Positions 21,447 through 47,755 of a DNA stretch of 64,000 nt are shown piece by piece; position 1 is the first letter of the stretch; each line of letters begins with the position of its first letter. This DNA comes from Polaribacter pectinis (GTDB taxonomy: Bacteria; Bacteroidota; Bacteroidia; Flavobacteriales; Flavobacteriaceae). The notes beneath the pieces were generated by a model, which saw only the letters and a program-made list of their open reading frames with translations, was not told the DNA's origin and did not search any database. The stretch lies in assembly GCF_014352875.1 (NCBI RefSeq), contig NZ_CP060695.1:279501-343500 (forward strand), written 5' to 3'. The translations under genes were made by a program, and so were the position numbers.

Positions 21447-22757
21447 TTATAATTTAAGATAATTATTAATTTTAATGTCTTTCGCTTTTAAATCGAACAT
21501 TAAATTATAGAGCCCGAAAAAAGTTCTATTCATGTAAATAAAATGCTTGGAACCTCTACTACCATTCATAGATCTTAATTCTGCACTTTTAGAATAACGT
21601 TCGCCAAATTCAGATATTTTATTAAAAAATACTTCGTCAGAAAAATCAAAAGTTTCTACGTGAAAAGGTTGTGTAAAAATAGATAGCATTTCATGAAACA
21701 TCGCTCTAAAAAATTCTAATTCTTCTTTACTATCATCTTTCAATAAAATTTCTAATTCGTACATTTTCTCATCAAATAATGTATCATTAGCAAGCGTTTC
21801 TTTGTTTGCTAAAACAAAATACGGGTTGTAAAAATCTAAAGGAATTGTTTTCATACAACCAAAATCTAAAGCGACTAATTTATCATCTTCAGAAATTAAA
21901 AAATTCCCTGGATGAGGATCTGCATGTACCTTTTTTAAATTATGAATTTGAAACATATAAAAATCCCACAAAGCTTGTCCAAGTAAATTTGCTTTTTCTT
22001 GATTTGTGTTGGTGTTTGTAAATTCTGATAAATGGATTCCTTGCATCCAATCCATTGTAATTATCTGTTTAGACGACAGTTCCTTGTAATAACTAGGGAA
22101 AGCTAAATTTGGGATATCTTTACAAGCGTCAACAATTTCTTGGCTTTGTTCTACTTCTAAAACGTAGTCTGTTTCTTCTAATAATTTATTTTGAACCTCT
22201 AAAAAATACTCATCAGACATTTTTCCTTTCATGTTAAACATTCTAATAACAAAAGGTTTTAGCAATGCTAAATCAGATTTTATACTGTCTGAAACTCCTG
22301 GATATTGAATTTTAACAGCTAATTTTTTACCATCCTTCTCTGCTTTATGAACTTGTCCAATACTTGCTGCATTGTATGCTTTTAAATCAAAAGAATCGTA
22401 AATGTCACTTGGGAATTTTCCAAAACTCTTTTTAAAAGTTTTAGAAACCAAGGCTTCAGAAAGTGGTGGAACAGAAAATTGCGCTAAAGAAAATTTTTCT
22501 ACGTATGCTCTTGGTAAAATACTTTTTTCCATGCTTAACATTTGCGCAACTTTAAGCGGACTTCCTTTTAAGTCTTTTAAGCTATCGTAAATATCTTCTG
22601 CATTCGATTTATTTAGTTTTTCTCTTGCTTCTTCTTCAGTTTCTGTAATTTTATTTCCGTAATATTTTAAATAATTTACACCAACTTTTGCGCCTGTTGT
22701 AACTAATTTAGAAGCTCTTTGTAATTTAGAAATAGGTATTTTGCTTGCTTTTTTCAT
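21447..22757 (-). CDS. UbiB/AarF/ABC1-family atypical kinase
   Basis: 436 residues of the UbiB (Coq8) protein-kinase-like fold. Signature AASIGQVHKA, the ion-pair lysine in LAVKIQYPG, the catalytic block KVHADPHPGNFL and the metal-binding LDFGCMK are all present. Bacterial and plastid members are tied to quinone and other isoprenoid lipid metabolism and to plastoglobule lipid droplets. Six bases downstream of the TetR gene, so the two form an operon. Position beside a storage-lipid locus makes a lipid-related role attractive, but that is inference. Confidence 0.85.
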   Translation of the reverse strand: MKKASKIPISKLQRASKLVTTGAKVGVNYLKYYGNKITETEEEAREKLNKSNAEDIYDSLKDLKGSPLKVAQMLSMEKSILPRAYVEKFSLAQFSVPPLSEALVSKTFKKSFGKFPSDIYDSFDLKAYNAASIGQVHKAEKDGKKLAVKIQYPGVSDSIKSDLALLKPFVIRMFNMKGKMSDEYFLEVQNKLLEETDYVLEVEQSQEIVDACKDIPNLAFPSYYKELSSKQIITMDWMQGIHLSEFTNTNTNQEKANLLGQALWDFYMFQIHNLKKVHADPHPGNFLISEDDKLVALDFGCMKTIPLDFYNPYFVLANKETLANDTLFDEKMYELEILLKDDSKEELEFFRAMFHEMLSIFTQPFHVETFDFSDEVFFNKISEFGERYSKSAELRSMNGSRGSKHFIYMNRTFFGLYNLMFDLKAKDIKINNYLKL

Positions 22758-22763
22758 AGTGTT

Positions 22764-23420
22764 TTATTCTTTTTGAAACTTTTCTTTGTAGATAAATTTC
22801 CCTAAATCTAAAGCGTTTTTTAGAAAATTATTTTCTAAAAGCTCAAAACTTGTATTGATAGATTTCTCAATTAAAATATCGGTTTTTTCAAAAGATTCAG
22901 AAGTGTCATCTAACCAAAATTTAATGGTTAAAAAAAGTTGAATCCAGGCAGATTCTCCAACAAACTTTCTCTGTGCTTTTTCTAGACCATCAATAGGTAA
23001 GATGCTTTCAGAAATCTCTAAATGATTAACAAATTGAATAAATTCCTTTTTTAAATCAGAAAATGTACTGAATGATTTTATCTTGTTTTTACAACCTTTT
23101 AAAACAATAACAATGTATTCTCTGTTTAAATTTAGGTTCTCAAAAAAAGTAAAGTATAAACTTAAAAGTTGATTTTTTTTATCGAAAGAAACAAATTCTT
23201 CACTTTCATTTAATACTTCTAAAGAATTATTAAAAAGTTCTTTAAAAACTGTTTTTTCAACTTTTTTTAAAGACTTAAAATGTTTGTGAAAAGAAGTTGT
23301 TTCAATCTTTACAGTTTCACAGAAATCTTCAACATCTAAAGGTTTGTTTTGATGTTCTACAACGAAATCCATGTACAAAGTAAGGATGTCTAATTTAGAA
23401 ACTTTTTTCTTTTTTGCCAT
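22764..23420 (-). CDS. TetR-like transcriptional regulator
   Basis: 218 residues. The N-terminal ~60 aa read as a TetR helix-turn-helix (ILTLYMDFVVEHQNKPLDVE, then TSFHKHFKSLKKVEKTVF); the rest is an all-helical ligand/dimer domain. Co-transcribed with the UbiB-like kinase from its own -7 element at 23425. Ligand unknown; an acyl-CoA or lipid effector would suit the neighbourhood. Confidence 0.75.
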   Translation of the reverse strand: MAKKKKVSKLDILTLYMDFVVEHQNKPLDVEDFCETVKIETTSFHKHFKSLKKVEKTVFKELFNNSLEVLNESEEFVSFDKKNQLLSLYFTFFENLNLNREYIVIVLKGCKNKIKSFSTFSDLKKEFIQFVNHLEISESILPIDGLEKAQRKFVGESAWIQLFLTIKFWLDDTSESFEKTDILIEKSINTSFELLENNFLKNALDLGKFIYKEKFQKE

Positions 23421-35542: not shown

Positions 35543-36847
35543 TTAATTTAAAGCTTCTTTATAAACTTTTAAACAACGCTCTCTTGCCTCTTTATGATCT
35601 ACGATTTCTTTAGCATACGTTAATTCTTGAAATTCTGGAACCCACTTTTTAATATATTTTAAATCTTTATCGAACTTTTTGATTTGAGTTGTTGGATTAA
35701 AAATTCTAAAATATGGCGAAGCATCTACACCAGAACCTGCAACCCATTGCCAATTACCAACGTTACTTGCCATTTCGTAATCGTGTAATTTTTCTGCAAA
35801 ATAAGCTTCTCCCCATCTCCAATCGATTAATAAATGTTTGCATAAAAAACTACCCACTAACATTCTTACTCTATTGTGCATAAAACCAGTTTCATTTAAC
35901 TCACGCATTCCTGCATCTACTAAAGGATAACCAGTTTGACCTTCGCACCATTTTTTAAACTCTTTTTCGTTATTTCTCCACTCAATTCTGTCGTATTTTG
36001 ATTTGAAGGCTTCTTTATGAGTTTGTGGAAAATGCCATAAAATCTGCATAAAAAATTCTCGCCAAATTAATTCCTGCCAGAAAATCTCGTTTTTTTCTGC
36101 AGTGGCTTTTTTTATCATTTTTCGAATGCTAACCGTTCCAAATCGTAAATGCGGGCCTAATTTTGAAGTAGCATCTTTTGCTGGAAAATTTCTAGTTTCT
36201 TCGTATTCTTGAATTAAAGTAGGCGTAACATCGTACTCTTTAATTTCTTGTTTCGATTTAGTAAAACCTAAATCAGACAATGAGAGATTTGGTAAACGTG
36301 TATTTTTTACCAAATTTTTTAGGAAGGAATTAGTGTAGTAGATATCTAAATTATGTGTTTTAAATTTTTCTTTCCACACTTTCATGAAAGGCGTATAAAC
36401 CACATAAGGAGTACCATCTTTTTTTACAACTTCGTCTTTTTCGAAAATTACTTGGTCTTTAAAAGTCTTAAAATTGATGTTACTATCAGCTAATAGTTTC
36501 TCTATTTCTTCATCTCTTTCTTTTGCATACGGCTCATAATCTCTATTTGTAAAAACGGTATCAATTTTATATTCTTTTATTAAATTTTGATAAATATTCT
36601 TTGGAGTTCCATGAAAAATAGCCAAACTACTGTCGTTTTCATCTTGTAAGGTTTTTCTCATTTTTTGCAATTCATCAAAAATAAAGTTGACTCTTGCATC
36701 GTCTTTTGGTAGTTTGTCTAAAATATTTTCATCAAAAATAAAAATAGGTAGAACAGGATTCTCACTTTTTAAAGCGTTGTAAAAACCTATATTGTCATCT
36801 AATCTTAAATCACGTCTAAACCAAAAAATATTTATTTTGTCTTTCAT
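35543..36847 (-). CDS. phrB: Deoxyribodipyrimidine photolyase (class I CPD-type)
   Basis: 434 residues. N-terminal Rossmann antenna domain (FWFRRDLRLDDN) and C-terminal FAD domain with the hallmark block ASNVGNWQWVAGSGVDA, ending in FNPTTQ. Repairs cyclobutane pyrimidine dimers with blue light using reduced FAD; the antenna is normally methenyltetrahydrofolate or a deazaflavin. The Trp chain residue in NWQW is retained. ATG 36847 begins one base after the SRPBCC stop; the longer reading from 36865 would overlap it. Part of the operon running from 41115. Confidence 0.93.
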   Translation of the reverse strand: MKDKINIFWFRRDLRLDDNIGFYNALKSENPVLPIFIFDENILDKLPKDDARVNFIFDELQKMRKTLQDENDSSLAIFHGTPKNIYQNLIKEYKIDTVFTNRDYEPYAKERDEEIEKLLADSNINFKTFKDQVIFEKDEVVKKDGTPYVVYTPFMKVWKEKFKTHNLDIYYTNSFLKNLVKNTRLPNLSLSDLGFTKSKQEIKEYDVTPTLIQEYEETRNFPAKDATSKLGPHLRFGTVSIRKMIKKATAEKNEIFWQELIWREFFMQILWHFPQTHKEAFKSKYDRIEWRNNEKEFKKWCEGQTGYPLVDAGMRELNETGFMHNRVRMLVGSFLCKHLLIDWRWGEAYFAEKLHDYEMASNVGNWQWVAGSGVDASPYFRIFNPTTQIKKFDKDLKYIKKWVPEFQELTYAKEIVDHKEARERCLKVYKEALN

Positions 36848-36848
36848 T

Positions 36849-37313
36849 TTACTTGTATTCTCCAAAAAGTTCTGTCAATTTTTTCTGTCTATATTCAAAT
36901 ATTTCTTCCAATTTTGGTTTCACTAAAAAAGGATGTACCATTTGCCCTAAAATTCCCATAGGAACTTTGTAATCTATAATATCTTCCATTTCTACACCAT
37001 CCTCAATTTCTTTGATAAAATGTTTGTGATGCCATAAAGCATAAGGTCCAAAACGTTGTTCGTCTACAAAATATTCGTTGTCTTTTACGTGCGTAATTTC
37101 TGTGACCCATTTTGTTTTTATCCCTAAAATCGGAGTAACAATATATTGAATTATTTGTCCAGGATACATAGGTCTGTCTGCTCCTGAAAGGATATCAAAA
37201 CTCATATAATCTGGAGTAATTGTTTTTAAATTCTTCGGATTCGATAAGAATTCCCAACCTTTTTCTAATGAAATTGGTAGATTTTGTTTTCTGTGAAACG
37301 TGTATATTTTCAT
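36849..37313 (-). CDS. SRPBCC-family ligand-binding protein
   Basis: 154 residues with the START/Bet v1-like (SRPBCC) plan: FHRKQNLPISLEKGWEFLSN, then a curved sheet, then a long C-terminal helix (VKPKLEEIFEYRQKKLTELF). This group is frequently linked to photolyase and SDR genes in light-stress clusters. Hydrophobic ligand unknown. One base separates it from tspO and one from phrB. Confidence 0.8.
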   Translation of the reverse strand: MKIYTFHRKQNLPISLEKGWEFLSNPKNLKTITPDYMSFDILSGADRPMYPGQIIQYIVTPILGIKTKWVTEITHVKDNEYFVDEQRFGPYALWHHKHFIKEIEDGVEMEDIIDYKVPMGILGQMVHPFLVKPKLEEIFEYRQKKLTELFGEYK

Positions 37314-37314
37314 C

Positions 37315-37776
37315 TTAATTATGAATTAAAATATATAGATTTAAGGAAGTTGCAATGCACAGCCAAATCTTATATGGAAGTAATAAATATTTGTAATATT
37401 TTACTTTATTACTCAAATTGAAGAAGTAATAAAATAGGAGGGAAGTCAATAATGTAATGGTTATCAACCCAAATAAAACCAAATTTTGGTTGAAGAAAAT
37501 ATAATTCCAACTTACATTCAATATAAATTGAAGTAGAAAAAATAATTTCATTTTCTTGGAATTTTCTTCAGAAAACAATTTTCCTAAATAAATGGAAAAG
37601 CAAATCATAATTAATGTCCAAGCAACACCAAAAACCCAACCTGGAGGTGTCCAAGGAGCTTTATTTAAATTGATGTACCAATCTGTCATTGGTCCATTTT
37701 CCATGAGCCAATTTCCAATTGCCAAACCACCAAAATTGATGATTAAAAATAATATGGTAAACTTTAATTGTTTCAT
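37315..37776 (-). CDS. tspO: TspO/MBR (tryptophan-rich sensory protein)
   Basis: 153 residues, five TM helices, with the family WYxxLxKPxWxPP region seen as WYINLNKAPWTPPGW and the helix-3 block WTLIMICFSIYLGKLF. TspO binds tetrapyrroles and is implicated in light- and oxygen-dependent responses and porphyrin handling. Two bases after the Lacal_2735 gene. Confidence 0.93.
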   Translation of the reverse strand: MKQLKFTILFLIINFGGLAIGNWLMENGPMTDWYINLNKAPWTPPGWVFGVAWTLIMICFSIYLGKLFSEENSKKMKLFFLLQFILNVSWNYIFFNQNLVLFGLITITLLTSLLFYYFFNLSNKVKYYKYLLLPYKIWLCIATSLNLYILIHN

Positions 37777-37778
37777 CT

Positions 37779-37952
37779 TTAAGAATTTGCTTTCAACTTT
37801 TCTATTTCTTTCAACAAATTATCTGCTTCTAAATATTTCTGATCACTATCACTTCTATTGATAGATTGAAGCTTAAAACCTTCTTCCATCAATTTTTTAT
37901 ATTTTTCTTGTAATTTTTCTACTTCCGATTTCTTTTTGAAAAGTCCGAACAT
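37779..37952 (-). CDS. Lacal_2735-family small protein (57 aa)
   Basis: A 57-residue protein starting MFGLFKKKSEVEKLQEKYKK and ending LLKEIEKLKANS: a short MFG(L)FKKK head and one long amphipathic helix. This matches the Lacal_2735 family of flavobacteria by memory. The start codon overlaps the glutathione-peroxidase stop by one base (TAATG), and the stop is two bases before tspO. Function unknown; fixed position within the light cluster suggests stress adaptation. Confidence 0.8.
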   Translation of the reverse strand: MFGLFKKKSEVEKLQEKYKKLMEEGFKLQSINRSDSDQKYLEADNLLKEIEKLKANS

Positions 37953-38425
37953 TATTTTAAGTGTTTAGTAATTTTAGAACTCAATGGTTTTGTAATTGAA
38001 AAATAATAATCGATTAATTTTCCTTCAGGAGAAACCAAATATTTTTGAAAATTCCACTTAACAGTAGAACTTTTTTTGCTATTAAATTCTCTATTTGTTA
38101 GCCAAGTATATAAAGGATGTTGGTTAATTCCTTTCACATCTACTTTTTCTGTAATTAGAAACGAAACTCCATAATTTACCTCACAAAACTCTTGAATTTC
38201 AGAAGCATTTCCAGGTTCTTGTTTTCCAAATTGATTGCAAGGAACTCCAATAACCACCAAGTTTTCTTTGTATTGACTACTCAATTCTTCCATTTCTTTA
38301 TATTGTGAAGTAAAGCCACATTTCGAAGCGACATTTACAAACAAGATAAATTTGTTTTTGTATTCAGATAAGTCAATAGCTTTATTTTGTAAACTATTAA
38401 TTTTAATATCGTAGATATTGGTCAT
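37952..38425 (-). CDS. Glutathione-peroxidase-family thiol peroxidase
   Basis: 157 residues, thioredoxin fold. Peroxidatic Cys in NVASKCGFTSQY replaces selenocysteine; the Gln (GVPCNQFGKQEP) and Trp/Asn (WNFQKYLV) of the catalytic tetrad are present. The extra Cys in PCNQF fits a thioredoxin-dependent mechanism. Reduces hydrogen and lipid peroxides in the cytosol. Between the SDR gene and Lacal_2735 gene with almost no spacing. Confidence 0.92.
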   Translation of the reverse strand: MTNIYDIKINSLQNKAIDLSEYKNKFILFVNVASKCGFTSQYKEMEELSSQYKENLVVIGVPCNQFGKQEPGNASEIQEFCEVNYGVSFLITEKVDVKGINQHPLYTWLTNREFNSKKSSTVKWNFQKYLVSPEGKLIDYYFSITKPLSSKITKHLK

Positions 38426-38428
38426 ATT

Positions 38429-39112
38429 TTAAATTTTGAAACTAACAATTCCGCAATCTAATTCGAAAATTTGTCCGGAAATAGATGTTGCTTTGTCAGA
38501 AATTAAGAAAGTTGCTAAATCTGCAACTTCAGTAGGTTGTAAGTATTTTTTAAGAGGATGACGTTCTGTGATATTTTCTATCATACGTTCATTTCTTAAA
38601 AGTTTTGAAGCCAGTTCAGTATCTGTAACTGTGGGTGCAATTGCATTTACACGAATCGTGGGTGCTAATTCTGCGCCTAAAGATTTTGTTAAACCTTCCA
38701 CAGCAGATTTTGCTGCAGCCACACTTGCGTGAAAAGGCATACCTAATTTGGCGGCAACTGTGCTAAATAATAAAATATTTGGGTTGTTTCCTTTTTTTAG
38801 TGAAGGTAAATAATGTTGAATCGCTTTTACAGCACCAACAACGTTAATTTCGAAATCGTTTCTAAAATCTTCTAACTTTAATCTCGAAATTGGTTTTAAG
38901 TTAATGCTTCCAGGACAGTATATTAAAGCGTTTATTTCTTCAATTTCTGGTAAAGCATCTTCTAAAATATTGCAGTTATAATGAGTAAGATTAGTGTGAG
39001 GCTGCAAAGGAGCAGATCTGCTTATGTTTATAATTGAGTTTTCTTCAACTAAAGCAGTTACAATTGCATTTCCAATTCCTTTGCTTCCTCCAATAACTAA
39101 TATTTTTCTCAT
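38429..39112 (-). CDS. Short-chain dehydrogenase/reductase
   Basis: 227 residues, classical SDR. Cofactor motif GGSKGIG at 7-13, NAG-equivalent replaced by YCPGSIN, catalytic Ser in LLFSTVA. The usual YxxxK is altered: the aligned segment reads FHASVAAAKSAVEG, with His-Ala in the Tyr area, so catalysis may be modified. Substrate unknown. Three bases from the glutathione-peroxidase-like gene. Confidence 0.82.
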   Translation of the reverse strand: MRKILVIGGSKGIGNAIVTALVEENSIINISRSAPLQPHTNLTHYNCNILEDALPEIEEINALIYCPGSINLKPISRLKLEDFRNDFEINVVGAVKAIQHYLPSLKKGNNPNILLFSTVAAKLGMPFHASVAAAKSAVEGLTKSLGAELAPTIRVNAIAPTVTDTELASKLLRNERMIENITERHPLKKYLQPTEVADLATFLISDKATSISGQIFELDCGIVSFKI

Positions 39113-39119
39113 AGTGCTT

Positions 39120-39335
39120 TTAAGGTCTTCCTTTCAAGCGCTTTTCAATTTTTTGTTTTACAACTGTTAAGCGCTTCATCAAATCCATTAATTCTGGATC
39201 TTTTTCTTTTTTATATTCTTCGTTAAGCTCTAATACTAAAGCTTTTACTTCTCTTGATGCTAAAATTCTATCACTTGTAGTTTTAAATGAGAATTTTCTT
39301 GTCTCAAATTCTACTGCCTTTTCTTTTAATGTCAT
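39120..39335 (-). CDS. Small helical protein, paralogue B (71 aa)
   Basis: 71 residues, charged and all-helical: FETRKFSFKTTSDRILASRE then LMDLMKRLTVVKQKIEKRLK. About 60 % identical by eye to the neighbouring 75-aa protein, so the pair arose by tandem duplication. No family recognised and no membrane segment. Located between the paralogue and the SDR gene. Confidence 0.72.
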   Translation of the reverse strand: MTLKEKAVEFETRKFSFKTTSDRILASREVKALVLELNEEYKKEKDPELMDLMKRLTVVKQKIEKRLKGRP

Positions 39336-39413: not shown

Positions 39414-39641
39414 TTATGCAGTTAAAGGTTTTCCCTTTAAACGTTTCTCAATTCTTTGCTTGATTACAGTTAGACGTTTCATGATATCCATAATCTTTTC
39501 GTCTTTATTTTCTTTGTAAATTTCGTTTAAACTCAAGACCAAATCTTTTGCTTCTCTTGCGGCCATAATACGATCGCTTGTTGTTGGGAATCTCATTTTT
39601 CTTGTCTCAAATTCCAGTGCTTTTTTTATTAATAAATTCAT
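39414..39641 (-). CDS. Small helical protein, paralogue A (75 aa)
   Basis: 75 residues: FETRKMRFPTTSDRIMAARE then IMDIMKRLTVIKQRIEKRLK. The conserved core is FETRK-F-TTSDRI-A-RE-K-LVL-LNE-YKE plus MKRLTV-KQ-IEKRLKG, shared with the next gene. Two bases after folE, hence co-transcribed with it. Function unknown. Confidence 0.72.
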   Translation of the reverse strand: MNLLIKKALEFETRKMRFPTTSDRIMAAREAKDLVLSLNEIYKENKDEKIMDIMKRLTVIKQRIEKRLKGKPLTA

Positions 39642-39643
39642 AA

Positions 39644-40336
39644 TTAGTAATTTAAAGTGTTTTGTAATTCTGCTATTTTTTCTTGATTTTGGAATTTTCC
39701 TCCAAAATAAGAGGTGACAGTAGAAGAAGTATCATCTTTAATTCCTCTTGAAGAAACACATAAATGTTTTGCATCAATTATTACTGCAACATCTTCTGTG
39801 TTTAAAATTCCTTTTAATTCTTCCGCAATTTGGTTTGTTAATCTTTCTTGAACTTGCGGTCTTTTTGCATAATATTGTACGATTCTGTTCAATTTAGAAA
39901 GTCCGATTACTTTTCCTGATGAAATATAGGCAACATGTGCTTTTCCAATAATTGGCACAAAATGATGCTCGCAATTAGAATAGAAAGTAATATTTTTTTC
40001 CACCAACATTTGGTTGTATTGATATTTGTTATCAAACAAAGCAACTTTTGGTTTATTTGCCGGGTTTAATCCGCTGAATATTTCATCAATATACATTTTG
40101 GCAACTCTTTTTGGAGTACCTTGTAAAGAATCATCAGTTAAATCCAATCCCATTACATCCATTATTTCTGAAAATAAATGCGCTATTTTTTCTTTTTTCT
40201 TTTCATCAGAAATTTCAAATGCATTCGCTTTCATTGGAGTTTGTAAACCCGTAAATAAGTGGTCGTCTCCAACTTCTTCGAATGAAAAGCCGTTTAATTT
40301 TTCTGAAATTTCTTTTGGTATTATTTCTGTAATCAT
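39644..40336 (-). CDS. folE: GTP cyclohydrolase I
   Basis: Converts GTP to 7,8-dihydroneopterin triphosphate, the entry to folate and pterins. 230 residues; zinc and catalytic block NCEHHFVPIIGKAHVAYI, then GLSKLNRIV and RPQVQERLTNQIAE, and a late Cys-bearing KHLCVSSRG. Its place amid four photolyase/cryptochrome genes fits supply of the folate antenna chromophore; this link is inference but recurs in other bacteria. Confidence 0.96.
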   Translation of the reverse strand: MITEIIPKEISEKLNGFSFEEVGDDHLFTGLQTPMKANAFEISDEKKKEKIAHLFSEIMDVMGLDLTDDSLQGTPKRVAKMYIDEIFSGLNPANKPKVALFDNKYQYNQMLVEKNITFYSNCEHHFVPIIGKAHVAYISSGKVIGLSKLNRIVQYYAKRPQVQERLTNQIAEELKGILNTEDVAVIIDAKHLCVSSRGIKDDTSSTVTSYFGGKFQNQEKIAELQNTLNY

Positions 40337-40396: not shown

Positions 40397-40669
40397 TTAT
40401 CTTTTTGCTATAGAGTTGTTTGATATTGATTTTTGCCTCGAACACTTAAATCTTCCTTTTTCGAAAGTTCTTAATTTCTCGTGTTTCGTTTTCCTTCCTT
40501 GAACTCTTTCTCGCCACATTTTAAAGCTTTTCGGCTTCATTTCTCTTCGCATTAAATCGATAACTTCTTGTTCTTTTAATCCGAATTGAAAATTAATTGC
40601 TTCGAAAGTTGTTCTGTCTTCCCAAGCCATCTCTATTATTCTATCAATTGCTATACCATCTAAAACCAT
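40397..40669 (-). CDS. TIGR03643/DUF2805-family protein
   Basis: 90 residues, basic. IDRIIEMAWEDRTTFEAINFQ followed by FGLKEQEVIDLMRREMKP and FKMWRERVQGRKTKHEK is the TIGR03643 signature; the first part resembles an HTH. Commonly found beside photolyase genes. Function unknown. ATG 40669 is chosen over an upstream TTG at 40675. It follows the unknown 144-aa protein by 11 bp. Confidence 0.87.
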   Translation of the reverse strand: MVLDGIAIDRIIEMAWEDRTTFEAINFQFGLKEQEVIDLMRREMKPKSFKMWRERVQGRKTKHEKLRTFEKGRFKCSRQKSISNNSIAKR

Positions 40670-40680
40670 ACTCAATCAAT

Positions 40681-41115
40681 TTAATTTATAGCGTCATAAA
40701 ACTCGTAATTCTTGTCGTTTTCAATTTTTAAGTCCACCAATTTGTCAATAAATTTTTTATTTTCTTTTAGTAATTTATTACTTGTAAATCTTACAAAGTT
40801 TCCTTGTGCGTGTATGCTAAAACCATCTGTTTTATACATATAAAGTTGATAAAAAGGAATTGCCCAACTGAAGTTTTTGAGTCCTTTATTAATATGAACT
40901 AAAATTCCTTTTTTTCTGATTTCGATATTTGCATAGTTAATATCAGAAACGACATTCATTATATTTCTGAAATTAGGGCTTACATCAGAAACCATCATTC
41001 TTTTAGAACCTACACCTTTCTTTTTTATAGCTTCAAAAAAAGTGTAAGCAGATCCTACTAAATCATTTATAGTAGCTTCTTCATCTTTATTTTTATGTGT
41101 TGTATTAAAAATCAC
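40681..41115 (-). CDS. Unknown protein, first gene of the second light-cluster operon
   Basis: About 144 residues; no family recognised. N-terminal half helical (TINDLVGSAYTFFEAIKKKG), then a likely beta-rich part (ANIEIRKKGILVHINKG, SWAIPFYQLYMYKTDGFSIH) and a helical end. The apparent TTG start at 41121 lies inside the exact -7 element TATCTTTG and cannot be translated if that element is used; GTG 41115 is the first usable in-frame codon, giving a leaderless or nearly leaderless mRNA. A position directly behind the palindromic operator makes it a candidate regulator or sensor component. Confidence 0.6.
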   Translation of the reverse strand: MIFNTTHKNKDEEATINDLVGSAYTFFEAIKKKGVGSKRMMVSDVSPNFRNIMNVVSDINYANIEIRKKGILVHINKGLKNFSWAIPFYQLYMYKTDGFSIHAQGNFVRFTSNKLLKENKKFIDKLVDLKIENDKNYEFYDAIN

Positions 41116-41118
41116 ACT

Positions 41119-41126
41119 CAAAGATA
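41119..41126 (-). promoter_or_regulatory. -7 promoter element of the 41115-35144 operon
   Basis: TATCTTTG, exact TANNTTTG on the minus strand, identical to the element of the other light operon at 47709. No TTTG -33 box; the palindrome at 41138 occupies the upstream region, consistent with an activator-dependent promoter. Confidence 0.65.
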
Positions 41127-41137
41127 CATAAAATATA

Positions 41138-41175
41138 TTTTTGTTTAACTATTATTTGTTATTGATAAACAAAAA
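41138..41175 (-). promoter_or_regulatory. Palindromic operator, copy B (10-bp arms, 18-bp spacer)
   Basis: Arms TTTTTGTTTA (41138-41147) and TAAACAAAAA (41166-41175) are perfect inverted repeats separated by 18 bp. Copy A at 47718 has the same arms except for the outermost base pair and the same 18-bp spacer length with unrelated spacer sequence. The gap to the -7 element is 11 nt here and 1 nt in copy A, a difference of one helical turn. Confidence 0.72.
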
Positions 41176-41236
41176 TTAAGAAAGTATTAACAATCAGTGT
41201 AATAAGGAAGTAATAAAAATTCTGTTTTAATAGAAA

Positions 41237-42715
41237 CTACAGCATTTTATCTCTGGTTGTAATGGTATGTTTTTTAAAAATTCTACTGCTTTCTGCAACA
41301 ACATCTGGGTCGTCTTTCATTTTCCAGAGAATTTCTGTTGCTTTTTTACGAGTTAATTTAATGTCTACAATCGTTTTAGGATAATCTGTTCCTAAATGGA
41401 AATTATTAAATTGCTCATCTAAAGAAGTCATTAAATAAGGTTCATGAATAAATGCTGTGGGTAAATTTGCTAGTTCTGGAACCCATTTTTTTATAAAAGT
41501 TGCATCTTCATCATGCTCTTTGCTGTTCTTAATGGGGTTATAAATGCGAAGCGTGTCTAAACCAGTATCGCCAGAACTCATCTGTAATTGAGGAAAGTGA
41601 ATGCCAGGTTCGAAATCTAAAAACATTTGTGATAAATGTTTGCTTGCATCTTGCCAAGGTTGCCACAAAATATGAGTGAAAAATGAAACCAATAATGCTC
41701 GCATTCTAAAGTTTAAATAACCGGTTTCATTTAAACAACGCATACTTGCATCGACTAGAGGGAAACCAGTTTGCCCATTTCTCCAAGCTTCTTGGTACTT
41801 TTCTGAAATGCTTTTCTTCAATTTTTGAAAACCTTTATTCAAACTTGCATTTTCCATGGTATGTTCCATTTCAAATTTTTGAATAAAATGAGCCTGCCAT
41901 CTTAAACGTGAAGTAAAAGCATCTAAATGTCTTTTATTATTGTCATTCTTCGCTTCATTTGCTTGCTGAAAAATTTGTTTGATAGAAACATTTCCCCAAG
42001 AAATATAAGGCGATAATCGACTACAACTTTCTCTTGCCAAAGCTGGTTTCGAAATATTGTACATATATTGTTTATGCCTTGTTTCAAAGAAGGTTTTTGC
42101 GTATTTCCAGGCTGTTTTTGTGCCTCCTTTTTGAAATATTTTTGAAGTAGGAGTTTCTAAATCAACAATAGTAAACCCTTTTTTTAAGTCGTTAATTTCT
42201 TCAGAAGAAACAAGTTTTTCCGTTTTTAAATTGATTTTAATCTGATTGGAATTCATATATTCTTCCCAGTGTTCAAACCAATCTTCTCTATTTAATAAGC
42301 CTCTTAAAATGGCATTATTTTTATTTTCTATCCAATTAATTGAATTATTTCTACAAAAACGAGCAAAATCTTTATCTCGATTATAGGTTAGTAATAAGCC
42401 AGTTTCTTGATGCGAAAAAACAGTGTTTATTTTATAACTATTTAAAAGCTGATTAAAAGTCGTTGTAACTTCGGAAGAGACGCATAAAATTTCTGAGTTA
42501 AAAGCTTTTAAATCTTCGTTCAAATCGACTAAAGATTGTTTTATAAAGTTCCAATGACGTTCGCTATAATGCAAATCATTTTGAAGCGATTTTTCAAAAA
42601 CATACAAAAACAACACTCTTTTTTTTGATGCCAAAGCATTGTAAATCGCCTCATTATCTTGGATTCTTAAATCGCGTTTAAACCAAACAACATTTATTTC
42701 TTCTCTGTTACTCAT
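41237..42715 (-). CDS. Photolyase/cryptochrome-family protein with divergent FAD region
   Basis: 492 residues. Starts as a photolyase (VVWFKRDLRIQDNEAIYNAL) and has the FAD-domain block NGQTGFPLVDASMRCLNETG. Where canonical photolyases read xNxGNWQW, it reads EPGIHFPQLQMSSGDTGLDT, lacking the Asn that contacts flavin N5 and the Trp of the electron-transfer chain at that position. Belongs to a bacterial subgroup whose function is poorly defined. Last gene of the first light operon; overlaps the next gene upstream by 8 bp. Confidence 0.85.
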   Translation of the reverse strand: MSNREEINVVWFKRDLRIQDNEAIYNALASKKRVLFLYVFEKSLQNDLHYSERHWNFIKQSLVDLNEDLKAFNSEILCVSSEVTTTFNQLLNSYKINTVFSHQETGLLLTYNRDKDFARFCRNNSINWIENKNNAILRGLLNREDWFEHWEEYMNSNQIKINLKTEKLVSSEEINDLKKGFTIVDLETPTSKIFQKGGTKTAWKYAKTFFETRHKQYMYNISKPALARESCSRLSPYISWGNVSIKQIFQQANEAKNDNNKRHLDAFTSRLRWQAHFIQKFEMEHTMENASLNKGFQKLKKSISEKYQEAWRNGQTGFPLVDASMRCLNETGYLNFRMRALLVSFFTHILWQPWQDASKHLSQMFLDFEPGIHFPQLQMSSGDTGLDTLRIYNPIKNSKEHDEDATFIKKWVPELANLPTAFIHEPYLMTSLDEQFNNFHLGTDYPKTIVDIKLTRKKATEILWKMKDDPDVVAESSRIFKKHTITTRDKML

Positions 42716-44192
42716 GGTCTAATTGATTTAAAAATAATTTAGCATTTTCGAAATGTTCTTCTTTTTTATCTTGATTCATTTTGTCGAAAGTTCTAATTAG
42801 CATTCCCAATCTTGGGTTGCTTAAAAAGAAATCTCTGTGTTTGTCCATAAAAGTCCAGAACAAACCATCCCAAGTTTTTTGCCAATCGCCTTTTTTGTAA
42901 TTGCTCATTTTCATGATGTAATTACTGCTACTTATGTAGGGTTTTGTGCTCATTAAACCACCATCTGCAAACAAACTCATTCCATAAACATTGGGCACCA
43001 TTACCCAATCGTAAGCATCAATAAAAAGTTCCATAAACCATTGGTAAACTTCATCTGGGTCAAACTCACACAAGACCATAAAATTTCCTAAAATCATTAA
43101 GCGCTCTATGTGATGTGTGTAAGCGGTTTTATTTACTTTTTTAATTACATCATCTATGGGTTGAATGCCAGTTGTACCATCATAAAAAGATTTTGGAATT
43201 TTCCTGTTGAATTTCCAAAAGTTTTTGTTGCGTTCTTCAGTTCCTTTTACTTCGTAAACACCTCTTATAAATTCTCGCCAACCTAAAATTTGACGTACAA
43301 ATCCTTCTGTTGAATTTATGGGTACCTCATTTTTATTCGCAAATGCTATAGCTTGGTCAATAACATATTTTGGGTGTAATAAACCCACATTTATTAAAGG
43401 TGATAATAAACTGTGATTCAAAAAATGTTCTTCTCTAACAATAGCATCTTCATAAGTGCCAAATTCGTGAAAACGGACTTCAAAAAATTGTTGTAACCAC
43501 TCTTGGGCAGATTTAAAATCGATAGGATATACTAAAAAATCGTTTAGTTTTCCGTAGTTTTTAGAGAAGTTTTCATTTACATATTTTGTAGCTTCTTTAT
43601 GATATTTATTTTGCGCAGGAAACTGAATTATTGGAGGTGTTTTTGTCTTTGGATATTTCTTTCTGTTTTCATCATCAAAAGTTAACTTACCTCCAACATG
43701 GTTTTTTCCATCCATTAAAATATCTCTATTTTTTCTTTCACTTTTATAAAATGAAGTCTGGAAAAATTTCTTTTTTGTAGGTTTAAAAAAAATGGATAAC
43801 TCTTCTTTTGTATTGATAAACAAAGGATTATTATACCAAATTAATTCTAAATTCTTTTTTGATTGTTGAATGTGTTTTTCTAACCAATTGTCTGTTGGAT
43901 CGATAATATGGATTTCAGTAACACCGTCTTTTGCTAATTTTGGGAGTAATTTTCGAACATCGCTCAACTCATTTTTAGCCTCAATATAATTTACTTTTTT
44001 TCCTTTTTCGGTTAAAAAATCAGCATAAGATTTCATACTTGCTCTGTGAAAAGCAATTTTTTGTTGATGAAATTTATACAGATTGAAAAACAAATATTCT
44101 TCAACTATAATAATATCATCCACTTTATCTAATACTTCAGAAGTTTTAAAAAGTTGATGCGGAAATATAATATGTACAGATTTCTTACTCAT
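42708..44192 (-). CDS. FeS-BCP/(6-4)-photolyase-like protein lacking cluster cysteines
   Basis: 494 residues related to the prokaryotic (6-4) photolyase group (PhrB/CryB): N-terminal HIIFPHQLF, conserved TAYTHHIERLMILGNFM with the His/Tyr pair, then FIDAYDWVMVPNVYGMSLFADG and PYISSSNYIMKMS. That group normally holds a [4Fe-4S] cluster through four cysteines, three of them just after MSxY. Here the segment reads MSNYKKGDWQKTWDGLFW and the whole protein has one cysteine, so the canonical cluster cannot form. Start overlaps neither neighbour on the left; abuts the Cry-DASH stop. Confidence 0.85.
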   Translation of the reverse strand: MSKKSVHIIFPHQLFKTSEVLDKVDDIIIVEEYLFFNLYKFHQQKIAFHRASMKSYADFLTEKGKKVNYIEAKNELSDVRKLLPKLAKDGVTEIHIIDPTDNWLEKHIQQSKKNLELIWYNNPLFINTKEELSIFFKPTKKKFFQTSFYKSERKNRDILMDGKNHVGGKLTFDDENRKKYPKTKTPPIIQFPAQNKYHKEATKYVNENFSKNYGKLNDFLVYPIDFKSAQEWLQQFFEVRFHEFGTYEDAIVREEHFLNHSLLSPLINVGLLHPKYVIDQAIAFANKNEVPINSTEGFVRQILGWREFIRGVYEVKGTEERNKNFWKFNRKIPKSFYDGTTGIQPIDDVIKKVNKTAYTHHIERLMILGNFMVLCEFDPDEVYQWFMELFIDAYDWVMVPNVYGMSLFADGGLMSTKPYISSSNYIMKMSNYKKGDWQKTWDGLFWTFMDKHRDFFLSNPRLGMLIRTFDKMNQDKKEEHFENAKLFLNQLDHE

Positions 44193-45503
44193 TTAAAATA
44201 ATGTTTTTTCTAACCATAATTTTCTAAATTTATGATTCGTATCATAACGTTCTGCTTGCAATTTTGTGTTGAATTTTCGGTCTCTTGGATCATTTCCAAC
44301 GCCAGCAACATACATCCAATTACCATAATTACTGTGTACATCGTAATCTAACAACATCGATTCGAAATAAGAAGCTCCAATTCGCCAATCTTGCAATAAC
44401 TCTTTGGCAAAATAAGAGGCAACATTTTGTCTTCCTCTGTTGCTCATCCAACCAGTTTCTTTTAATTCTATCATATTGGCGTTAACAAAATCATCTTTTG
44501 TTTCTCCATGTATCCATTTTTGAATAATTTCTGAATCGGAGTTCCAATGATATTCTTTTTCTAAAATTCCGCCTATTTTAAAGATTTTGGAATCGTATTT
44601 TAAGGAAATGTATTTAAAATAATCTCTCCAAATTAATTCAAAAATCACCCAATATGTAGATTGATTTGCGCCAAATTCAGCTTCAAATTCTTTAATTTTC
44701 CAATAAATAGTTTTTGCAGAAATACTGCCATTTGCCAACCAAGCAGAAAATTTTGTACTATAATCAGTCCCAATCAAACCATTTCTAGTTTTCTTATAAA
44801 AAGCAACTTTTTTAGTTTCAAAAAAGTAGTTATATAATCTTTCTAAAGCTGAGTTTTCTCCACCAGAAAAAGGAAAAGCCGATTTTTTATTTTCTTCGAA
44901 ATCATCAAAACCTAAATCTCTTAAACTTACAATTTCTGTACTGTTTTCAACTAAATTATCATCAGGAAGTTTAGAAATAGAGCTTATTTCTTGTATTTCA
45001 ACTGTCTTTTCTATCTTCTTTCTAAATTGCGTAAATACATTTGGGGTGTTAGAAAAATCATTAGAAACAGTTTCAGGATGATATAAAAATTGGTCGTAAT
45101 CTTCCACAAAAGGAATGTTATCAGAAAGCGTATTTTTAACCAAGTCATTGGTATCAATTTCCTCTTTTGTCCATTCTTTTTGAGTGTAAATTGTATCAAT
45201 AGAAAACTCATCACAAATTGTATGAATTTTGTCTTCTGGAGCATTAAAATAGGTGAGGAGTGTAATGTTTAAATCCGAAAGGTTTTTTTGTAAATCTTCA
45301 ATCGTTTCAATTAAAAATTTTGCTCTAAATTTTGCTGTTTTTTGGAAACCAAATTCATCAACTTTATAATATTTAGGATCAAAAAAATAAACAGCAATTA
45401 CTTTTTTATGATTTTCTGTAGCTTCTTTTAAAGAGCTATTATCATTTACTCGTAAGTTATTACGAAACCAAACTAAACCTGTTTTTTCTTGTTTCTCCTG
45501 CAT
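44193..45503 (-). CDS. Cryptochrome DASH
   Basis: 436 residues. [16 protein letters not shown] at the start, then the FAD block [22 protein letters not shown] and [20 protein letters not shown] followed by [11 protein letters not shown], the DASH-type pattern. Binds FAD and usually MTHF; repairs dimers in single-stranded DNA and may signal. Its 5' end overlaps the DUF2256 gene by 31 bp, and it abuts the FeS-BCP-like gene. Confidence 0.93.
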
Positions 45504-45613
45504 TTTTCGCTACAATATTTTACGTCTTCCCAATTCTTTTCCCATTTTTTTCGCCAAGTGAATGGTTTTTCACAGACCAAACATATTTTTTCAGGAAGAT
45601 GCTTTTTTTTCAA
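45473..45613 (-). CDS. DUF2256 small zinc-ribbon-like protein (46 aa)
   Basis: 46 residues reading [20 protein letters not shown], then [20 protein letters not shown]: CxxC...CxxxC and the W-rich core of DUF2256. Probable TTG start at 45613, 2 bp after the SDR stop; an ATT one codon upstream is the only other in-frame choice before a stop. The 3' end overlaps the Cry-DASH start by 31 bp. DUF2256 genes typically sit beside cryptochromes. Function unknown; likely zinc binding. Confidence 0.85.
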
Positions 45614-45615
45614 AA

Positions 45616-47037
45616 TTACTTGTTAATGTTATTTATCATTCCGTTGAAAACGAACCAATGAAAAGGCATCACAGCATACCAATACAATCTTCCAGCCAAT
45701 CCATGAGGTCTAAAAGTAGCAGTTTGGTATAAAATACCATCTTCAATTTTAAACTCTAACCAAGCTTCACCAGGTAAAACCATTTCTGCATAGAGTAGGA
45801 GTTTCCCTTTTTCTTTATCTGCAAAAATAACTCGCCAAAAATCTAAAGCATCTCCAGCATTTAATTGTGTTGGGTGTCTTCTTCCTCTTCGCAAACCTGC
45901 TCCACCAAAAATCTGATCTACAAAACCACGTATTTTCCACAAGAAAGTTCCATAATACCAACCAGTTTCTCCTCCAATTGCCCAAATTCTGTTTAATGTT
46001 CTTTCTTTGTCTTTTACTTTACGTTTCTTAAAATCTTTAAAGCAACCATATTCAGGAACATTTATAAACTCATGAACATAGTTTTTTAATTTTCCACTGC
46101 TTACATAAGAATCTTTCCAGCTGGAAACAATACTATTTTGTTCAATTTTTTTGAAAGCTAATTTTACAGCTTCTTTGTATGACATAGGATTTACATCCAA
46201 AATCTTATTAATGTCACTTTTATTTCCAATAACTTCTACACCCATTGAGTTTACTAAAGTACTCGCCAGTTTATAAGAAGTTGACGTAACAAAATATAAC
46301 CAGTAGGAAGATAATTTGGGTGTCATTATAGGAACTGTAATAATGGTTCTTTTTAATTTCCTAACTTTAGCGAATTGCAATAACATTTCTTTATACGTGA
46401 GTATTTCTGGGCCAAAAATATCGTAAGAAGTGTTGTATAATTCTTTTCTGTCCAAAGCATTGTGTAAAAATGATAAAACATCTCTAATTGCTAAAGGTTG
46501 TGTTTTTGTATTTAGCCATTTTGGGGCAATCATTGCTGGTAATTTCTCTACCAAATCTCTAATAATTTCAAAAGATGAGCTTCCTGAACCCACGATTATT
46601 CCTGCTTTAAAAGTGGTTAATGCGTATTTTTCTGAAGCTAAAGCGTTTTCAACATTTTTTCTTGATAATAAATGTTTAGACAGTTTTGTGTCGTTTGTAA
46701 TTCCACTTAAATAAATGGCTTGTTTTAAGGTTGTTGTTTCTGCAAATTTTTTGAAGTTAAAAGCGCATTTTTCTTCCAAAGCATGAAATTCTTTTGCAGA
46801 ATTAGACATAGAATGAATTAAATAATAAGCAATATCAATATCTTTAGGAATGTTATCTAAACTATCTGCATTTAAAAAATCTGCTTCAACAAGAATTACA
46901 TTTTCTTTTTCTTTAAAGTAATTTTCTGCTCTTTTAAAATCTCTAACAGGACAAACTACAGTATGACCGTCATTTAATAATAACGGAATTAATCGTTTTC
47001 CAATATAGCCAGTTGCTCCTGTAACGAGAATTTTCAT
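45616..47037 (-). CDS. SDR-type NAD(P)-binding protein with DUF2867 domain
   Basis: 473 residues. Extended-SDR N-terminal half with [14 protein letters not shown] and [16 protein letters not shown]. The C-terminal ~170 residues ([33 protein letters not shown]) form the DUF2867 domain, related to SRPBCC. Such proteins accompany photolyase genes in many bacteria; substrate unknown. Five bases after the flavin reductase gene. Confidence 0.87.
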
Positions 47038-47042
47038 AGAGT

Positions 47043-47666
47043 TTATTGTTGTTTTTTTGGTCTTTGGTAAGACAATTGTTTTTTGAATTTAGGAATCGCA
47101 TATGTATCTAAACCATTTATGGTTGCTACATTTCCTTTTGATAAATTTATGAGTCCGTCTTTTTCTAAAAGTTTGTCATTAATATATAATTCTTCAATTT
47201 GGGCAACCACTAACATTACATCGTTAGAAGGTACGTAAATTTCTTCAACAAATTTCATACTCATTTGAACTGGGCTATTTTTTACGAAAGGCGCCTTAAA
47301 ACTCCCTTTGTATTCTTCTTCCAAATTTGTCATATCAAATTCAGATATTTCTTCGGGATATTTTGCTGAAGTATGATGAGCATCTTCTATAATATCTTCA
47401 AAAATATGATTGATGGTAAAAACGCCAGTATCTTTTATATTCTTATGAGTATTTCTTGGAACTGTTGTTGGTCTTAAAATAAAGCCCAAAGTTGGTGGGT
47501 TTGAGCCTAAATGTGTTACAGAGCTAAAAACAGCAACATTCGGTTTTCCTTTTGTAGAAACAGAACCTAAAAGATTTGCAGATTTAAAGCCAGAGCAACT
47601 ATTTATTAAATTTATTTTATAGATTTTGCCTAATTCATCTATGTCTTTTCTGTTAAAAAATGCCAT
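47043..47666 (-). CDS. Flavin reductase-like (FMN-binding split barrel) protein
   Basis: 207 residues. Split-barrel flavin-reductase pattern: SVSTKGKPNVAVFSSVTHLG, then LGFILRPTTVPRNTHKNI, GVFTINH. Would bind FMN and could reduce flavin with NAD(P)H. First gene of the light operon that holds three flavin-dependent photolyase-family proteins, so flavin reduction is a sensible role, though not shown. Controlled by palindrome copy A. Confidence 0.87.
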   Translation of the reverse strand: MAFFNRKDIDELGKIYKINLINSCSGFKSANLLGSVSTKGKPNVAVFSSVTHLGSNPPTLGFILRPTTVPRNTHKNIKDTGVFTINHIFEDIIEDAHHTSAKYPEEISEFDMTNLEEEYKGSFKAPFVKNSPVQMSMKFVEEIYVPSNDVMLVVAQIEELYINDKLLEKDGLINLSKGNVATINGLDTYAIPKFKKQLSYQRPKKQQ

Positions 47667-47708
47667 TAGTAATATTTAATTTTTTTAATTGTAAAGTATT
47701 CTCAAAAG

Positions 47709-47716
47709 CAAAGATA
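47709..47716 (-). promoter_or_regulatory. -7 promoter element of the 47666-41237 operon
   Basis: TATCTTTG, exact TANNTTTG on the minus strand, 1 nt downstream of palindrome copy A. No -33 TTTG is visible. Confidence 0.65.
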
Positions 47717-47717
47717 C

Positions 47718-47755
47718 ATTTTGTTTATTTTTTTTGCTTTAAAGTTAAACAAAAT
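47718..47755 (-). promoter_or_regulatory. Palindromic operator, copy A (10-bp arms, 18-bp spacer)
   Basis: Arms ATTTTGTTTA (47718-47727) and TAAACAAAAT (47746-47755), perfect inverted repeats with an 18-bp spacer. It lies in the intergenic region shared with the divergent FGE-like gene and could affect both. Same architecture as copy B at 41138. Confidence 0.72.

Follow-up and report, generated by a model that had tools for sequence, protein, structure and literature searches.

What controls the two photolyase-cluster operons of Polaribacter pectinis? The operons lie within a 64,000-nucleotide stretch of contig NZ_CP060695.1 (the window, by which we mean this whole stretch). A sequence-only reading of the window had noticed two perfect 10-18-10 palindromes, at 41138 and 47718, in front of the operons, with a -7 promoter box, TATCTTTG, 11 nucleotides (nt) and 1 nt, respectively, from the 10-base arms. 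Both palindromes and both boxes (at 41119-41126 and 47709-47716) were found as described. The data argue that the palindrome is genuine and conserved, and that it serves as operator for what is probably a CarH-like regulator, a MerR-type protein with a B12-binding fold encoded outside the window. We put the probability that a CarH/LitR-type MerR regulator uses the palindrome as its operator at roughly 80%, judging from sequence. For the full chain, in which the protein would bind the operator, carry B12, sense light and repress in the dark by analogy with known systems, the odds appear slightly better than even.

The exact-site pattern used in the searches was TTTGTTTA-N18-TAAACAAA. In the window it matches only palindromes A and B, and across the genome, a single contig of 3,471,153 bases, these two are again the only exact sites, while the reversed pattern has none. 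Near-matches are another matter. The genome has 5 sites with one mismatch and 27 with two, and the 34 sites with at most two mismatches are equalled by 34 in the reversed control, so a loose match by itself is not informative. Similarly, the 10 window sites with up to three mismatches are no excess over the shuffle mean of 8.57. Among the two-mismatch sites of the genome 21 of 27 are inside open reading frames (ORFs), and these sites look like background. Of the 7 sites with at most one mismatch 5 are intergenic: the two window palindromes, the crtI promoter, the start of a TonB-receptor-like gene and a position upstream of a 51-amino-acid ORF.

Could the palindromes still be a product of chance, or a general feature of AT-rich promoters? 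The sequence is AT-rich, and imperfect matches, as we saw, are no commoner than in shuffles or in the reversed control. Against this explanation, in 120 family genomes the arms occurred 113 times at a spacing of 18 and 77 times at the 20 other spacings from 8 to 28 taken together; spacing 18 is thus 29 times the mean of the others (about 3.9 each), and the reversed control gave 4.0 per spacing. The larger family sample had 299 genomes, and counts over it treat the genomes as independent, which they are not. In this sample the exact site was present in 168 genomes and the reversed pattern in 12; in the genus the numbers were 60 and 2 of 78. We also fetched 59 loci (30 and 29; L018-L047 and L086-L114) with 65 exact sites, a non-random sample not selected by gene, and 62 of these sites were within 260 nt of an ORF start. 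With the conservation of position described below, the spacing, reversed-pattern and position tests rule out a chance origin of the exact sites, to which we give practically no probability; for loose matches chance stands. A consensus, TTTTGTTTAAC-N14-GTTAAACA, was built from 58 sites of relatives of the two window operons, and the spacer was little conserved across these sites, which were chosen by their arms.

The sites are kept at orthologous loci. For orf146, present in 53 of 78 genus genomes, the site was found with at most three mismatches at all 30 best-matching genus loci, own genome included (10 exact sites, 7 with one mismatch, 12 with two and 1 with three). The flavin reductase gene had the site directly upstream in 11 of 30 loci. 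At the 19 other loci, and in one more genome, the operon is led by TetR-like and ABC1 genes, and the site (at most three mismatches) lies ahead of this pair in 17 of the 20 fetched regions; two have no site, and in one the contig ends too early. When operons led by TetR-ABC1 are counted, the flavin reductase-photolyase operon is headed by the site in 28 of 31 genus genomes. In other genera, the site was observed at 8 of the 8 best TetR-ABC1 loci. In our genome the site is present and the leading TetR-ABC1 pair is missing from the photolyase operon. The scan of the genome and of relatives that the sequence-only reading had proposed as a check thus gave exact sites that are scarce genome-wide, and sites, exact or with few mismatches, that are kept upstream of the orthologous operons.

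The genome encodes two MerR_1 proteins. One of them (L016) has 109 amino acids and a MerR domain only. The other, with 298 amino acids, combines MerR_1 (PF13411, E 3.2e-16) with B12-binding_2 (PF02607, E 1e-8). Its gene is located at genome position 653.3 kb, directly before crtI (CrtID as best NCBIfam match), and between the two genes we see a one-mismatch copy of the palindrome, TATGTTTA-N18-TAAACAAA. The sequence-only reading had set LitR/CarH aside; it missed this gene because the gene is outside the window. Moreover, the arm motif TAAACA is compatible with T-nn-ACA, the core of the published half-site of CarH operators, nAnnTnnACAn, which occurs in direct repeats (PMC8156234).

The best sequence matches of the CarH-like protein in the PDB were Thermus CarH chains (E about 1e-11). 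An AlphaFold model made from 45 orthologs had a mean predicted local distance difference test score (pLDDT) of 88. The top 12 Foldseek matches of the model were all full-length CarH structures, the best of them in the form bound to adenosylcobalamin (AdoCbl) and DNA, and the TM-score against the cobalamin domain of Thermus thermophilus CarH reached up to 0.80 over the target. The signature of AdoCbl photoreceptors is given as GxxW, EH, GxxH and GxxxP (PMC11796333). All 98 of 98 orthologs have, without variation, the G and W of GxxW, the EH pair, the His that acts as lower ligand, and both G and P of GxxxP. The genome also has a gene for a cobalamin adenosyltransferase (PF01923).

The 98 carH loci (8 named, 30 and 60 others) are best matches and therefore biased to close relatives; 7 of the 8 named ones are from Polaribacter (69-77% identity), and the eighth is from Flavobacteriaceae. 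A site with at most two mismatches occurred in the carH-crtI gap in 52 of the 98 loci, and 91 loci had one with at most three mismatches in the 250 nt before carH. For 81 of those 91 the upstream site is 26 nt before the start and its right arm overlaps the first codons, so that its conservation is partly that of coding sequence, which takes some weight from this count. With at most three mismatches and either position allowed, 97 of the 98 loci had a site, the sole exception being L052.

A CarH-like gene was found in 245 of the 299 family genomes. The exact site was present in 163 of these 245 and in 5 of the 54 genomes without the gene, of which 20 were listed and 34 obtained by subtraction (p 2.5e-15). 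Among the better genomes (completeness of 90% or more, little contamination) the numbers were 147 of 221 and 3 of 28 (p 1.3e-8), with tallies made by subtraction and the three exceptions assumed to pass the contamination filter. Genomes with a close CarH had sites in 158 of 218 cases, and genomes with a divergent CarH only in 5 of 27, at a cut of E 1e-60 that was picked after viewing the match list. The five genomes with a site and no CarH were G079, G116, G224, G249 and G271, and loci were inspected in the first two. G079, which is 81% complete, had one site before a FAS1-like gene and one before a gene resembling, by eye, the Porph_ging protein of L025; its carH may be merely unassembled, because the genome is incomplete. 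G116 had a single site inside an ORF. What the genomes show directly is where the sites lie and how they are conserved and distributed, together with the regulator gene and its co-occurrence with them.

An obvious competitor for the binder is the TetR_C_23 protein that leads the operon in many relatives (the domain assignment was tested by Pfam in L255), with the palindrome as its own operator. The position of the site directly before TetR-ABC1, in the 17 of 20 genus regions and the 8 of 8 loci of other genera given above, speaks for it. It also gains from two tallies over the 299 genomes that count against a CarH-like binder: sites were present in 129 of 197 genomes with the TetR gene and in 39 of 102 without it (p 9e-6) and, within CarH-less genomes, in 3 of 10 and 2 of 44 (p 0.04, a weak effect). 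Within CarH-bearing genomes, on the other hand, the TetR gene had no effect (126 of 187 compared to 37 of 58, p 0.63), while among TetR-less genomes CarH did matter (37 of 58 compared to 2 of 44, p 1.5e-10). The correlation with TetR therefore vanishes once CarH is accounted for, and we reject TetR as the main binder. In addition, the only TetR match of our genome, 46% identical and located at 22764-23420, has no site, and yet both window sites are perfect. All in all, TetR as the binder appears very improbable. The TetR_C_23-ABC1 pair without a palindrome occupies window positions 21447-23420.

If a CarH-like protein binds, in which direction does it act? At crtI promoters the -7 box was inside the palindrome in 49 of 52 cases. 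For crtI and carH alike, the palindrome either shares sequence with the box or lies past it, as would suit a repressor. In front of the window operons it extends over the -33 region, again in keeping with repression. The claim that the boxes of the two operons stand one helical turn apart is borne out at the 30 orf146 genus loci, where the box begins either 12-13 nt (20 loci) or 2-4 nt (10 loci) past the arm, with nothing between. Over the promoter classes the main box offsets were -38, -17, +2 to +4 and +12 to +13, i.e. about 10 or 21 nt apart; the exceptions were 8 of 63 other sites, with the box at +5, and the L011 site of our genome, with the box at +8. The further statement that neither window promoter has a -33 TTTG agrees with our data, in which both lack a -33 TTG. 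This element was present in 0 of 11 flavin reductase promoters and 2 of 30 orf146 promoters. However, among 96 reference promoters with a box a -33 TTG occurs in just 18 (a reference limited to the window had 4 promoters), so that its absence is not diagnostic, and we rejected it as proof of activation. Of the dedicated light/UV regulator that had been proposed to serve and activate both operons, the single regulator is probable and the light/UV theme holds, while activation is the less likely sign.

The preferred explanation, in which the operator is occupied in the dark, runs as follows. The AdoCbl-bound CarH-like protein would sit on the operator in the dark and block RNA polymerase at the -7/-33 region. 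Light would break the cobalt-carbon bond and the protein would leave the DNA. Carotenoid synthesis, photolyases and cryptochromes, folate synthesis and accessory photoprotection genes would then be induced jointly. That the sites repress in the dark and release in the light is, by analogy, the most likely mode of action; direct binding, B12 loading, the response to light and the sign of regulation (repression) are what we infer.

Several observations weigh against this explanation. In 88 of 98 orthologs Asn stands where GxxH has its G, and Gly is there in 1, although the His of the motif is kept in 98 of 98. Gln144 replaces the light-state ligand His132 of Thermus CarH at a position that is at least 95% invariant, and therefore the light switch may differ or fail. 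His132 was not taken as class-defining; a title refers to a semi-conserved LitR histidine, which may be the same residue. The Thermus H132A mutant was mostly tetrameric in light, although an earlier report saw disassembly (PMC10442372). Pfam reports no PF02310 domain in the CarH-like protein, and its NCBIfam score of 67.8 bits is below the CarH equivalog cut-off of 400; we thus claim a CarH-like regulator, judged by its sequence, and not a member of that equivalog. Among the CarH-bearing genomes 82 of 245 have no exact site, and the five CarH-less genomes named above have one. The CarH operator of Thermus and Bacillus is built of 3-4 direct 11-bp repeats, while here there is one inverted repeat with a spacing of 18. 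Finally, the phasing of the box positions is more than a mere roadblock would call for, and an activator in contact with the polymerase could account for it too.

Two explanations with the same CarH-like binder take up these points. One of them makes the protein, in light or as the apo form, an activator of both window operons that touches RNA polymerase from one constant side of the DNA helix, in a variant with simultaneous repression of crtI and carH. The box positions restricted to 2-4 or 12-13 nt past the arm, the offsets about 10 or 21 nt apart and the near absence of the -33 TTG are in its favor. It has to face the palindromes that cover or follow the box at crtI and carH, the repressor role of the CarH/CarA proteins treated in PMC8156234, the -33 elements that are weak in the reference too and the boxes at +5 and +8; besides, the related genomes are not independent. 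We consider activation unlikely. The other explanation keeps the binder and changes the signal, to the redox state, another chromophore or a partner photoreceptor in place of AdoCbl photolysis. It could account for the Gln at the position of His132, and it has precedents: LitR proteins of class II retain just a portion of the B12 domain, one of them being the effector of a LOV protein (PMC9758184), and Myxococcus CarA represses without B12 (PMC8156234). Against it stand the invariant AdoCbl contacts (with the exception of the G of GxxH), the predicted B12 fold and the adenosyltransferase gene. A different signal is possible, although we would rather doubt it.

The predicted regulon extends beyond the window. 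The 65 exact sites were before FAS1 (fasciclin) genes in 26 cases, before crtI in 8, before photolyase-cluster genes in 7 and before other ORFs in 21, while 3 had no such neighbor. FAS1 was thus the commonest named neighbor, and Pfam assigned FAS1 to 20 of 48 neighbors that had been unassigned. In 7 cases the neighbor was a gene of tRNA thiouridylase type, presumably mnmA, and 5 of these genes diverge from one for FAS1. Four genus loci (L092, L094, L096, L110) have carH followed by two exact sites, separated by 92 bases, and then FAS1 and crtI. Our own genome had no FAS1 match in a search in which 4 of 14 control genomes were positive. For two FAS1 examples AstaP was among the PDB sequence matches, not the closest one. 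AstaP-type FAS1 proteins from algae are carotenoid binders, but no binding was seen for a homolog from a cyanobacterium (PMC10147662), and for this reason a carotenoid role of FAS1 here is a guess.

TonB-receptor-like genes were located at or just past the site in L006 (own genome), L087, L088, L103, L105 and L109. CarbopepD_reg_2 and Plug domains were detected in L006; CarbopepD/Plug was assigned by Pfam also in L088, in four of the set by tally, and in L087 by eye. These assignments suggest an outer-membrane protein in the regulon. At L011 (G000:C1:550723-550756, own genome) there is a two-mismatch site with a -7 box, and at L021 and L022, from two species of one other genus, an exact site with the box. 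All three have a strong terminator about 100 nt past the box and no ORF of at least 60 amino acids called there, so we list the transcripts as candidate small RNAs of the regulon. An Rfam search of six loci gave 4 matches, all below the gathering level; L022 was among those below it, and L011 had none. TerC was rejected as the L011 target, since its strand is wrong. No match to proteorhodopsin was found in our genome, in a search in which the control genomes were silent as well.

The features of the window are collected in Table 1.

Table 1. Palindromes, promoter boxes and genes of the two window operons (window coordinates).
Feature	Coordinates	Strand	Remark
Palindrome A, TTTTTGTTTA-N18-TAAACAAAAA	41138..41175	none	proposed CarH-type operator, orf146-DUF2805-folE operon
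Palindrome B, ATTTTGTTTA-N18-TAAACAAAAT	47718..47755	none	proposed CarH-type operator, flavin reductase-photolyase operon
-7 promoter box TATCTTTG, orf146 operon	41119..41126	-	begins 13 nt past 8-base arm
-7 promoter box TATCTTTG, flavin reductase-photolyase operon	47709..47716	-	begins 3 nt past 8-base arm
orf146, first gene of operon	40681..41121	-	no Pfam match
DUF2805 / TIGR03643 protein	40397..40675	-	
GTP cyclohydrolase I (FolE)	39644..40336	-	
Small protein 1 of paralogous pair (75 amino acids)	39414..39641	-	no Pfam match; likeness by eye
Small protein 2 of pair (71 amino acids)	39120..39335	-	no Pfam match; likeness by eye
Short-chain dehydrogenase	38429..39112	-	homolog in L018 with palindrome of its own
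Glutathione peroxidase family	37952..38425	-	
TspO/MBR family	37315..37776	-	
Protein without Pfam match	36849..37313	-	L019 homolog begins 26 nt past a palindrome
DNA photolyase	35543..36865	-	
Flavin reductase domain protein	47043..47666	-	
NmrA-like/DUF2867 protein	45616..47037	-	
DUF2256 small protein	45473..45613	-	
DASH cryptochrome	44193..45503	-	
Photolyase-related protein (DPRP)	42708..44192	-	
DNA photolyase/cryptochrome family	41237..42715	-	

The protein at 36849..37313 we take to be of the SRPBCC type. Small genes that by eye resemble the paralogous pair at 39120-39335 and 39414-39641 sit behind sites in L042, L046 and L102. The true start of orf146 may be the GTG at 41115, because homology in many relatives begins at residue 3. 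This possible start is only a few bases past the -7 box (window 41113-41121), and the same holds for the crtI ATG of many genera (L005, 1500-1545); with so short a distance between box and start, these transcripts may have little or no leader.

Sunlit water is a common habitat of flavobacteria. If the proposed regulation is true, their pigments and DNA repair would be switched on together in sunlight, the light response would hinge on vitamin B12, and FAS1, an unexpected family, would join the photoprotection set. The operator is defined, and with a candidate sensor and a predicted regulon the proposal can be put to a direct test. More tentatively, one may think of a divergent Flavobacteriaceae B12 photoreceptor with a long-spaced inverted operator and no light-state His, in command of a family-wide sunlight regulon with small RNAs and with light-induced FAS1 lipoproteins as carotenoid carriers or cell-surface shields; this wider picture we regard as a speculative possibility. 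In the open literature we recognised nothing that describes the operator or the regulon in Bacteroidota among the matches listed, with subscription papers mostly outside.

How does the system compare to known ones? Among Bacteroidota, a Chryseobacterium with light-induced carotenoids reportedly had no car or lit genes, and a new regulator was proposed there (PMC7064467). In Nonlabens a MerR gene heads the crt cluster (PMC11855829). MliR of Bizionia argentinensis is likewise a MerR-type protein of marine Bacteroidetes; having no effector domain (PMC9478572), it resembles, by description, the 109-amino-acid L016 and not the CarH-like protein. The operator of Myxococcus xanthus CarA/CarH also overlaps the -35 region and can block the polymerase, and CarA binds it as two dimers; it differs in being about 55 bp long, likely with direct repeats (PMC8156234).

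In Pseudomonas putida and P. mendocina the class II LitR proteins (PplR/PmlR) have light-inducible PhrB, FolE and cryptochrome-like CryB in their charge, so LitR control of photolyase, folE and cryptochrome-like genes in response to light is an already known theme, and a short-chain dehydrogenase is found both in the pmlR1 region and in the window operon (PMC9758184). These proteins have one of two B12-binding domains and, in one case, a LOV partner, whereas here the B12 contacts are invariant. With CarH of Thermus thermophilus and Bacillus megaterium there are several parallels: the MerR helix-turn-helix with a B12-binding fold, the W-x9-EH motif, the lower-ligand His, the gene adjoining a crt gene and the arm that fits the half-site core. 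Here, compared to these, a Gln takes the place of His132, the promoters are of the TAnnTTTG type, and the predicted regulon takes in FAS1 proteins, TonB-receptor-like genes and an ABC1 kinase.

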